Source: Cutaneotrichosporon cavernicola (lineage: Eukaryota; Basidiomycota; Tremellomycetes; Trichosporonales; Trichosporonaceae). From it: a stretch of 64,000 bases of DNA. The stretch covers positions 2,914,001-2,978,000 of the forward strand of contig NC_083393.1 of NCBI RefSeq assembly GCF_030864355.1, given 5' to 3'. The notes beneath the pieces were generated by a model that was not told the origin of the DNA, made no database searches, and worked only from the letters and a program-made list of their open reading frames with translations. The position numbers and the translations under genes were made by a program. Shown here one piece after another: positions 31,042 to 34,161 of this stretch. The number at the start of each line of letters is the position of its first letter. The stretch's first letter is position 1.

Positions 31042-31391
31042 ATGAAAGACAGCCCTCTCCCCAATCCCATACCAACCACGACGACTGGACCAGTCATAAT
31101 CTGCCCTGGAGACTGGTGGCGCACCAACCGCGGGTGTAGGTCACCCTGGAGCTGGCTAAGACAGTGCCCTGTGACGCTATTGATGGCGGTGACGGCCCCA
31201 TCTGCGACTACTGCCGCGCGGAACTGGACAGCAGCTGCAAGACGTGCCCGGGCGACTGGTTTGGCACGAACCGTACATGTGCGTCTGCCATACATTGTTG
31301 GCTGATGCGAGTCGCGTGTGATCCCATTGACCGGGGGGATGGGGTGATGATTTGCGACTACTGCCGCAAGGAGATAGGGAGGGGTAGATAA
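31042..31391 (+). CDS. Small four-cysteine protein, two modules (family member A)
   Basis: Predicted 95-residue protein, not a family I recognise. Exons 31042-31135, 31165-31278, 31312-31391, with introns of 29 and 33 nt; phases close. It contains two copies of a module also found in three genes downstream. Module 1: CPGDWWRTNRGLPC, then 10 residues, then CDYCRAEL. Module 2: CPGDWFGTNRTFAC, then 11 residues, then CDYCRKEI. Each module has one phase-1 intron at the same position, two codons before its second Cys. Four Cys per module suggest a zinc knuckle or a disulfide-bonded unit. No signal peptide is seen. Role unknown. The coding status rests on the shared pattern across members, not on a database match. 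Confidence 0.65.
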
Positions 31392-31427
31392 CCTACACCC
31401 ATCTGAAACAGATATCACATCTAGCAT

Positions 31428-31514
31428 TGCCCTATGGCTCAGTTGGCTAGCGCGTGGAGCTGTTATTAACCAGTAACAACTCCGAGGTCCACGGTTCGAG
31501 CCCGTGTGGGGCAG
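31428..31514 (+). tRNA. tRNA-Asn(GTT) with 13-nt intron
   Basis: Cloverleaf visible by eye. The acceptor stem TGCCCTA pairs with TGGGGCA, with discriminator G at 31514. The D arm includes AGTTGGCTAG. The anticodon stem TGGAG/CTCCG encloses C-T-GTT-A, then an intron at 31466-31478 in the canonical site after position 37. The intron carries AACC, able to pair with the anticodon. The T arm CACGG-TTCGAGC-CCGTG is perfect and supplies the internal B box. A T-run at 31519-31523 is a likely Pol III terminator. It starts 36 bp after the small four-cysteine gene A. Confidence 0.9.
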
Positions 31515-31921
31515 ATTCTTTTTGCTTTTGTCTTTGTTTTATATCCTTGCATTGCGGTGGCTATTTTGTATCCCTGTCAATGGAGAGACCTGACGCGGGT
31601 TTTTTTTGTCTCCAGTTGTGCTGTGATGCGACTTGGACTTGGGTGGCGGGTTAGTGCAATGCGTCCCGTCCCCACGGCCGCGTGAGACTACAGCACTTGG
31701 ATCACAACCCCAGCCTACAAAAGCCTTCAAAACGCACAGTATTACATGACAACACTAATGTCCAATGTCCCTCACAACTATGATCACAAGTGCACAGCAC
31801 CTTGACCTCTCATACCTATGGCAACGTGTCTGCTGTCAGCTTGAGGTGAAGCTAGAAGCGTGAGGACCAAGCCGACCCACTCTATAGTTTCAGTACAAGC
31901 CCGTCCTCCTGGTACTTTGGG
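31515..31921. other. Intergenic after the tRNA
   Basis: About 400 bp with a T-rich stretch (to about 31620). No gene seen; probably shared 3' flank of the tRNA and the minus-strand small gene B. Confidence 0.55.
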
Positions 31922-32236
31922 CTACACCTGAAGACGGCAGTACGCGCACACGGCAACCTTCTTCTTCAAGACCCATTTCCAAGTCTCCTCGCATGCGTCT
32001 GGGTTAGCCCGGCCCGACTTAAAGAAAAACTCACGGCCCTTATTGCTCCCGTCCTCGGCACCGGGACACTCGATCCACTCGCACCGTTTCGTCGCCGTGT
32101 GCTGAGTGGTAGAAAAGCTGGCCGTCGTCGGTGGTGGCGTCGCCGTGTGCGGGTGCGTCGCTTGTGCGGCCGAGTGAGAGTGCGGCGTGGGTTGCAAGTG
32201 TTGCGCAACCATCGGGTACGGCGAGTGCACCTGCAT
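31922..32236 (-). CDS. Small four-cysteine protein (family member B)
   Basis: Predicted 92-residue protein; minus-strand exons 32236-32035 and 31998-31922 with a 36-nt intron. A His/Thr/Pro-rich N-terminal half (low complexity) precedes one module: WIECPGAEDGSNKGHAC, 14 residues, then CAYCRLQV at the C-terminus. The intron splits the codon after N-K-G in phase 1, exactly as in the other members. The module differs from the others by Ala in place of Asp after C-P-G and by Lys in place of Arg. Function unknown; zinc binding by the four Cys is an inference. Confidence 0.6.
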   Translation of the reverse strand: MQVHSPYPMVAQHLQPTPHSHSAAQATHPHTATPPPTTASFSTTQHTATKRCEWIECPGAEDGSNKGREFFFKSGRANPDACEETWKWVLKKKVAVCAYCRLQV

Positions 32237-33327
32237 CGTGGAGACGAGGAAGAGGGGTGTGAGGCGCCGAGAGGTTAAATACAGACACGCAAGGATGTAG
32301 ATATGTGAGAGATGGAGTGTTAGGTAGAGATGACGGCGCCAGGTTTCAATTCCATGTCGGGGGGAAACGCCCCGGTGAATGGTCAAGTCTGGCACTTGCG
32401 GCGTTGGGTCTGGGCCTTGGTGCGAGGCGACTGCGAGGCGACCGGAGAGCAGGAGAGTACATCAGACAGGCCGGGTGCCGCGTGTGAATGGCGTGTAGTC
32501 GGACGCGGGGATGGCACTGGGCGATGCAGGGTGGGACTAGACGCAGTAGTGGATGCATTGGTCGGTGCAGTGGTATGTATGAGCTACCTGCCCCGCCGCA
32601 ATTGACAACTTTTGCAGAGTGTTGTTACTGCAAGACTTCAAGTGGCGCCGAGTATGCATGTTGAGGGTGGGCCGCGGAATGTGGCATTCGGGAGCGAGGT
32701 GATGTGGATTGTGTTTTGTTCTAGGTGGGTCCGGCCCCTCCGCTGCTCTCGCACCATATCATGAGATCTAGTGGCGTTTTTACTTGCCTTTTCGCTCCAA
32801 GTAGTGCTTTGGCTGAGGTGGGAGACATGACAAGCAGAGTGTGTCTGAATCGGTGTGGATACCGGGCCGCGTTGTGGCGGATAACTGGATAACTGTCGCT
32901 CCTCGGTGGCGCTGGTTTCGCATATGCATGTGCGCGACCGGGAATGTGGCGTGTGGCGGCCAAACATGGTCTGAGCTGGGTGCGAGCAAAGTGTTGTCAC
33001 CACTGGCCTGGGCCGCGATCGACTCGGGCGGATGGCGGATGGCGGCAACGGACGCTCGAGCCGTTTCAGTGGGGGATTTCCAGAGCTGAAAATTTCGGAC
33101 GACAGCAAGTAGTTCACCAGAGTTGCAAGTACTGAACAGATAGGACAAGGGCGTACAGGTGGAGAGTATGTGCATGTCTATCGTGTCGGGGCAAAGATAC
33201 AATGTCTATGGTAGTGTCCGGGTGATCACTATGAGCGGTGTGGCAGTCTGGGTCTGTTGGCGGTACTGGTACTGTCAGATTGGTGAGGTTGGGCTGCGGC
33301 ATTCGAGCCTGGCGCGCGACTTGAAGG
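32237..33327. other. Intergenic within the small-gene cluster
   Basis: About 1.1 kb. I searched both strands for further copies of the four-cysteine module and saw none. Short open frames lack domains. Confidence 0.5.
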
Positions 33328-33527
33328 CTAGCACTGGAGCTGGCAATAGCGGCATACGACGCGGTACGAGATGCCGTCGGTGTACGCGGTGGGGACGCAG
33401 TAGGCTGGTGTCAGAGTCAGACCACAGAGACTAGACTAGACTCACCGCCGCGGTTCGCTCCGTTGCTGTCGCCATGGCACACAATGTCGTACGAGCAGAG
33501 AGTAGGTGCGGGGTTGGTGTAGCACAT
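33328..33527 (-). CDS. Small four-cysteine protein (family member D)
   Basis: Predicted 52-residue protein; minus-strand exons 33527-33446 and 33404-33328 with a 41-nt intron ending in CTGACACCAG. It begins MCYTNPAPTLCSYDIV, followed by the module CHGDSNGANRGAYC, 14 residues, then CRYCQLQC at the end. His replaces the usual Pro after the first Cys. Three extra Cys (two N-terminal, one C-terminal) distinguish it. The phase-1 intron position is shared with all other members. It is too short for ordinary gene finders. Function unknown. Confidence 0.6.
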
Positions 33528-33983
33528 TTTGCAGGGCTTGACAATGACAATGAATGTACGCGTCGGGTCGAGTTGGGGATGAGGTTGACAAGATGAGATG
33601 AGCAGGGTTGATAAGGCGCGGCCGTGATGGGCCTGCGACTACCTCGCTTCGAGACGGATTCCGGCGGGGGCGAGGCGGGATGAAGCGGTGACAGCGGGGT
33701 TTGAGGATGCCGCACGTAACGAGGGCTCAGGCCATGTCATGGCATGTTTAGGTCAGTCATGTCTAGCCAACGTCGGCTTGACCCGCCTCGTCTTGTCCCG
33801 CACAGATCGGGTGTGGTGAGCGACAAGATGAGCCAAATTAGGGACTAAGACTGGACGAAACGCGTTTTGAAACACTAGACATGAACGTACAGGAACGTAC
33901 AGGAGGGCTACATTGTATGAGCGGTCGTCTATGGCGGTGTCGACCAGCCAAGGTGTGGTGTGAGTCTAAGCGCTCCTAAAGGC
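33528..33983. other. Intergenic within the small-gene cluster
   Basis: About 450 bp between two minus-strand small genes. Nothing recognised. Confidence 0.55.
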
Positions 33984-34161
33984 TTAGACTTGGAGGCGGC
34001 AGAACTGGCAGATGACGCGCCCGTCGGGCAGCTTGAAGGGCGAGCACTTGTCTGATGTTAGCATGAGCCATTGGTAGCCTGCCGAGCGGCCTGGTCTTTC
34101 CCCACTCACGCCCGCGGTTCATGCCATACACGTCGCCGGGGCACTGGATCCAGGTTGTCAT
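33984..34161 (-). CDS. Small four-cysteine protein (family member C)
   Basis: Predicted 39-residue protein, the minimal version of the family. Minus-strand exons are 34161-34110 and 34051-33984; the 58-nt intron ends in CTAACATCAG. The sequence is essentially one module: MTTWIQCPGDVYGMNRGHKC, 11 residues, then CQFCRLQV. The stop follows directly. The spacing and the split codon after N-R-G match the other members. Such a compact protein could be a zinc-stabilised peptide (inference). There is no signal peptide. Confidence 0.6.

Follow-up and report, generated by a model that had tools for sequence, protein, structure and literature searches.

Does a run of four very small genes, predicted within a 64,000-nucleotide window of the Cutaneotrichosporon cavernicola genome (NC_083393.1, positions 2,914,001 to 2,978,000), represent a genuine protein family, and what might the four-cysteine module that the genes share be doing? 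A sequence-only reading of the window had placed five modules of the form C-[PH]-G-x10-C-x(10,14)-C-x2-C in four tiny genes between 31.0 and 34.2 kb, and when the gene models were rebuilt from the DNA all five were recovered as placed. As judged from sequence, these genes very probably belong to a real protein-coding family. We count eight modules in seven predicted genes of this one genome: besides the cluster of four, there is a solitary gene on contig C3 and a pair on contig C6 whose predicted products end in the module.

Gene A, on the + strand, encodes a predicted protein of 95 amino acids with two modules (A1 and A2), while genes B (92 amino acids), D (52) and C (39), all on the − strand, contain one module each. 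The gene models, several of them also recovered by the anatomy scan for the split module that is described below, comprise the following features:

31042..31135, + strand: gene A exon 1 (start, N-terminus, first half of A1); DNA reading, gene model
31136..31164, + strand: gene A intron 1, 29 nucleotides (nt), GTAGGT...GGCTAAGACAG, phase 1; gene model, anatomy scan
31165..31278, + strand: gene A exon 2 (second half of A1, first half of A2); gene model, anatomy scan
31279..31311, + strand: gene A intron 2, 33 nt, GTGCGT...GGCTGATGCGAG, phase 1, the weakest intron (GAG acceptor, in frame, no stop); gene model
31312..31391, + strand: gene A exon 3 (second half of A2, stop); gene model
32035..32236, − strand: gene B exon 1 (start placed at the first in-frame ATG, although a later one could serve); gene model
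31999..32034, − strand: gene B intron, 36 nt, GTGAGT...GGCTAACCCAG, phase 1, a multiple of three without a stop; gene model, anatomy scan
31922..31998, − strand: gene B exon 2 and stop; gene model, anatomy scan
33446..33527, − strand: gene D exon 1; gene model
33405..33445, − strand: gene D intron, 41 nt, GTGAGT...CTGACACCAG, phase 1; gene model, anatomy scan
33328..33404, − strand: gene D exon 2 and stop; gene model
34110..34161, − strand: gene C exon 1; gene model
34052..34109, − strand: gene C intron, 58 nt, GTGAGT...GCTAACATCAG, phase 1; gene model, anatomy scan
33984..34051, − strand: gene C exon 2 and stop; gene model

The details that had been read from the letters were reproduced. The first cysteine spacing was 12 residues in all five window modules, the motif N-[RK]-[GT] preceded the second cysteine in every one of them, and an arginine followed the last cysteine in four, the exception being D with glutamine. 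Each module was split by a phase-1 GT-AG intron of 29–58 nt in the same codon, two before the second cysteine, as both the gene models and the anatomy scan indicated. The second cysteine spacing was variable (A1, 10; A2, 11; B, 14; D, 14; C, 11), additional cysteines were present in D and B, and the exons of the window genes contained no stop codon.

The anatomy scan looked for an exon-1 half-module, a GT...AG interval of 26–75 nt at the fixed site and an exon-2 half-module, without stops, in 264 kb of sequence (the window plus 100 kb on each side). It returned exactly five matches, namely the five window modules within 3.1 kb; neither 60 dinucleotide-shuffled versions of the 264 kb nor the reversed sequence yielded any. 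When the [PH] and N positions were relaxed, the same five real matches were obtained, with a single match over the 60 shuffles and none in the reversed sequence. Although 37 C-x-[FY]-C knuckles occurred in the 264 kb, the upstream exon and intron accompanied only the five in the window. The earlier claim that a repeated splice site and cysteine spacing would be unlikely to arise by chance was thus borne out.

Three further modules emerged from the genome as a whole (20.2 Mb, 8 contigs). Gene E, on contig C3, encodes a stand-alone protein of 54 amino acids (METADCAGTLDGLNYRRLCVGMEITGLYFCRFCRRQ...), and its intron starts with GTGAGT at the site shared by the family. In F (C6:740008-741424, − strand) the module forms the C-terminus of a predicted protein of 458 amino acids and contains a 43-nt intron. 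Both were found with a knuckle pattern, whereas G (C6:716682-716867, + strand) was found by similarity to the tail of F, from which it lies 23 kb away in opposite orientation. The module of G ends another long frame (281 amino acids open; G is known over 401 bases only) and has a 30-nt intron at the family position. In F and G the protein similarity resumes directly past the AG of each intron, and in E, F and G the first cysteine spacing and the donor position are identical to those of the window modules. Across the eight-module alignment, C-x-G-x10-C was present in every copy and six residues (C, G, N, C, C, C) were invariant, while identity to D ranged from 22 to 46%. The sequences thus support well that the genes are real and related, as had been proposed; the accompanying proposal of tandem duplication holds for only part of the family, since three modules lie on C3 and C6. 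An origin of all copies by tandem duplication was dropped on account of these copies, and the family looks like a dispersed one, more than a tandem array.

How these members were reached defines what the screens can say. Word-based six-frame protein searches of the genome with A, B, C, D and a consensus peptide found nothing beyond the cluster, and the same type of search with E returned only E itself. Since none of these queries reached another member, such searches are insensitive at this divergence. The knuckle search employed a 21-place pattern for C-x-[FY]-C, run genome-wide in several widths; matches numbered 2, 19, 15 and 50, against 2, 25, 11 and 32 for the tool's backward-pattern control. 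Because these counts lie near the control, the knuckle alone proves nothing. All 50 matches of the widest pattern were examined (5 in the window and groups of 6, 6 and 33 others), and the full exon–intron model was found in 7 and absent from 43; the two groups of 6 were checked for C-x-G upstream and a GT at the set interval, and the 33 for a fuller model too. From the 19-match search, 11 of the 16 matches outside the window were examined, E among them. As G falls outside the knuckle pattern (C-L after the knuckle), further members may exist. A profile of the five window modules, tested with the cysteines and the first glycine held fixed, offered a separate measure: E failed to outscore 30, F 38 and G 11 of 20,000 shuffles, and the corresponding numbers among 20,000 background decoys were 21, 31 and 21. 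The scores of E and F are partly circular because the knuckle was used in finding both.

Comparison of the closest copies provided evidence for coding. A1 and A2 differed at 6, 5 and 13 first, second and third codon positions, respectively, and F and G at 7, 8 and 17 (of 36 codons), giving one-sided p values for the third-position excess of 0.028 (A1–A2), 0.016 (F–G) and 0.0014 (pooled). All ten pairs of window modules together yielded 97, 91 and 137 differences by codon position. The nonsynonymous divergence (dN) was about 0.19 for A1–A2 and 0.22 for F–G; the synonymous divergence (dS) was not computable, and we read this failed computation as saturation. The guanine-plus-cytosine (GC) content at third codon positions of the exons was 0.70–0.90, compared with 0.79 in the EMP70 gene of the window and an overall GC content of 0.58 in a nearby intergenic stretch.

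To judge the introns, spacings between a GTRNGT donor, a CTRAY branch site and a YAG acceptor were compared between the 264 kb and its reversed sequence. Spacings of 30–50 nt were in excess over the reversed sequence (30–34 nt: 32 versus 3), while those in the 20–29 range were not (25–29 nt: 3 versus 3). The first YAG after CTRAY was mostly 0–9 nt away (149 real versus 31 reversed), with no excess further out. Spliceosomal introns in the 264 kb are thus very short, with the acceptor within about 10 nt of the branch site. Lengths of 33, 36, 41 and 58 nt are therefore typical or nearly so in this sequence, whereas the 29-nt intron of A1 lies on or under the floor of local intron lengths. Six of the eight introns (B, C, D, E, F and G) begin with GTGAGT, A1 having the less usual GTAGGT, and those of B, C and D end in CAG (acceptor counts: CAG, 114 real and 15 reversed; TAG, 23 and 10). 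AAG acceptors paired with GTGAGT donors numbered 8 in the real and 0 in the reversed sequence. In five of the eight introns the length is not divisible by three; left unspliced they would shift the frame, so these modules are read through only after splicing. For E, the intron end was chosen by family fit: an AAG at 29 nt, 5 nt past CTAAC, retains the second cysteine. The weakest pieces of the gene models are the second intron of gene A and the exact intron end in E.

The sequence-only reading had also recognised no known family for the module. This stood for Pfam and the Protein Data Bank (PDB) with all eight modules and for NCBIfam and PHROGs with the five of the window, and its scope is that of these libraries. 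No Pfam model reached its curated cut-off for any of the eight modules, and the weak matches differed between members; the best score was 16 bits, for gene B with PF17486, whose cut-off is 27, and the best E-value in the eight-module scan was 0.0078. A scan of the whole F protein likewise gave no Pfam family. PDB profile searches with five, seven and eight modules produced no match at E ≤ 10, NCBIfam gave none, and PHROGs gave nothing significant (three families at E 0.066–0.096, each with one member). Gene D gave 3 peptide-pattern matches in viral contigs and 54 in prokaryote genomes, none of them confirmed and both collections being non-fungal; gene C had no match among phages, which, in a non-fungal collection, says little. 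In the parts of the literature that were available, nothing describing such a four-cysteine module was found. "Unrecognised" is accordingly to be taken as absent from the libraries searched, not as absent from other fungi.

Nearest in appearance are several zinc-binding families. The C-x2-C knuckle is common to zinc ribbons and to TRASH, BED and RING domains, and DZR_2, PyrI_C, Arc_trans_TRASH, zf-BED and zf-RING_2 gave weak matches (E of 0.02 or worse), each with at most one of the eight modules, DZR_2 being matched by the whole protein A only. Scores remained below the cut-offs (DZR_2, 15.1 versus 27 bits; zf-BED, 14 versus 20.6; PyrI_C, 13.8 versus 23.4). Whereas zinc-ribbon and knuckle families need two short ligand pairs, only the last pair of the present module is C-x2-C, the first two cysteines having 12 residues between them in all eight copies. 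The GRF-type zinc finger (zf-GRF) shares an N-x-G stretch that precedes ligand three and an aromatic residue close to the final ligand; its spacings differ, however, and the C-x-[FY]-C knuckle of the present module is not known to be part of it. None of the eight modules had zf-GRF listed in its Pfam output at E ≤ 10 under HMMER default filters, which discard most matches above an E of about 0.1. DUF6820 (PF20699) was matched weakly by gene C alone among the eight modules, over 11 residues (E 0.08; 13.4 bits versus a cut-off of 27.5).

We favour, with moderate confidence, a family of intracellular mini-proteins built on one conserved module, in which the four cysteines hold zinc and the folded unit contacts protein or nucleic acid. 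In all copies of the module (consensus C-x-G-x5-N-x4-C-x(10-14)-C-x-[FY]-C) one and the same codon is interrupted by a predicted phase-1 intron, which would be ancestral. A single zinc ion would be bound by the four cysteines, as the sequence-only reading had also suggested, with the C-x-[FY]-C knuckle supplying one half of the site and the Gly/Asn loop encoded by the first exon the other, both closing around the metal; a Zn(Cys)4 site of this kind appears probable. Inspection by eye of A, C, D and E showed no hydrophobic, signal-peptide-like N-terminus, and the cysteines are therefore probably reduced and metal-binding. The folded module would then serve as a unit of protein–protein or nucleic-acid contact: the larger proteins would bind a partner through their module tail, and a partner of that kind would also be bound by the stand-alone copies on their own. 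That it is such an interaction module, not an enzyme or a metal store, we hold to be reasonably likely. More speculatively, the stand-alone copies may compete with the larger proteins for the partner in the manner of a microProtein.

MicroProteins are small single-domain proteins related to larger multi-domain ones, according to the portions available of two articles (PMC6003976, PMC4807768). The likeness is that, within one genome, the module makes up small proteins by itself and is also a domain of larger ones: the gene models predict single-module proteins of 39 (C), 52 (D) and 54 (E) amino acids, against the C-terminal module in F and G. In those portions microProteins are described for plants and animals, and a module like the present one is not mentioned (PMC6003976, PMC4807768). 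The present likeness derives from gene models, not from a shared partner, dimerisation or inhibition. A more elaborate version, in which a new zinc-module fold confined to one fungal lineage operates as a microProtein system, with dispersed stand-alone modules competing against the larger proteins that end in the module and with in-frame introns of some copies switching it between cysteine-spaced and interrupted forms, seems quite improbable to us.

Several observations weigh against the intracellular zinc-module family. The 12-residue first spacing is not that of a classical knuckle pair, and no zinc family scored above its cut-off. In the genome-wide search, the knuckle counts did not exceed the control at one width (19 versus 25) and did so moderately at two others (15 versus 11, 50 versus 32). 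The usual CAG or TAG end is absent from three of the eight introns (A2, GAG; E and G, AAG); GAG is an acceptor type without excess (11 real, 18 reversed), and the excess of AAG is small (15 versus 8). The introns of A2, B and G (L095) are multiples of three without in-frame stops, and an unspliced reading would add 11, 12 and 10 residues, respectively; intron retention would therefore give longer in-frame forms. In E, an alternative CAG at 56 nt retains the frame and drops the second cysteine. This CAG is about 32 nt past the branch-like CTAAC, a distance at which the genome shows no acceptor excess, and the doubt over the intron end of E is offset because the 29-nt reading has a short branch-to-acceptor distance. 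Finally, a decayed-looking copy on contig C5 (L081, C5:1067834-1068204) has the exon-1 motif (MPLLPICKGDKDGENHGG... upstream of CRKQGEWVCAYCSAEY and a stop) but no GT donor at the family position; it was thus not counted as a module.

Two observations concern the surroundings of the cluster. An intron-containing transfer RNA (tRNA) gene lies between A and B (window 31427-31515, + strand); its anticodon was read as gtta and it is probably a tRNA-Asn GTT with an intron, the type being assigned by reading. At least 13 similar stretches occur elsewhere in the genome, one of which was inspected. Conserved eukaryotic genes flank the cluster on both sides, as seen from Pfam matches of 19 open reading frames of the window (4753-60850), which include AICARFT/IMPCHase, DEAD helicase, DHBP synthase, EMP70, WD40 and HEAT repeats as well as SMC hinge and N-terminus, ABC1 kinase, eIF3c and Lgl.

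Other explanations account for parts of these data. The pattern was picked with the sequence already seen and the genes are tiny, so a loose pattern fitted to unrelated sequence has to be considered; yet the 60 shuffles of the 264 kb yielded nothing while all five real matches fell inside 3.1 kb, three more copies exist elsewhere, one of them (G) reached by protein similarity alone, and the codon-position signal points the same way. Chance can hence hardly be the explanation. A partial decay, in which gene A, whose second intron is weak, and possibly further genes are degenerating duplicates at a turnover-prone spot by the tRNA gene, deserves more weight and is a possibility that we nevertheless regard as doubtful. 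It would suit the GAG acceptor of A2 and the replacement of NRG by NRT there, the 29-nt intron of A1 with its less usual donor, and the relic-like copy on C5. Set against this, A1 and A2 differ mostly at third positions and keep the six invariant residues, and no exon holds a stop.

Small size and cysteine content are typical of secreted fungal peptides, in which the cysteines would form two disulphides; the extra cysteines in D and B, and the best weak Pfam match of B being to a cysteine-knot family (PF17486, as scored above), would agree with such a nature. However, the N-termini of A, C, D and E show no hydrophobic signal by eye, a C-x2-C pair is typical of metal sites, and in F and G the module closes a longer frame that looks charged and low in complexity (by eye, and for G over the 401 bases only). 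We therefore consider secretion unlikely. Much less probable still is a mobile-element domain, for example a nucleic-acid-binding knuckle, spread by transposition. The copies are dispersed and a tRNA gene adjoins the cluster, but the copies have diverged to the 22–46% identity to D noted above, and the retained intron indicates that they did not come through RNA. Within its own genome, moreover, the 3.1 kb of DNA matched itself and otherwise the tRNA gene only (13 of 13 other matches; lower bounds, simple repeats being skipped), and a mobile repeat was dropped from consideration on the ground that the matches are so confined.

Zinc-like families that are small and restricted to one lineage are, in principle, nothing unusual, and genes of 39–54 codons with introns of about 30–60 nt are of a kind likely to be missed by gene finders. 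With eight modules, a fixed intron and six invariant residues, the present family indicates that such tiny genes are recoverable from sequence alone. The occurrence of the module as the tail of two larger proteins offers a direct handle on the role of the mini-proteins.

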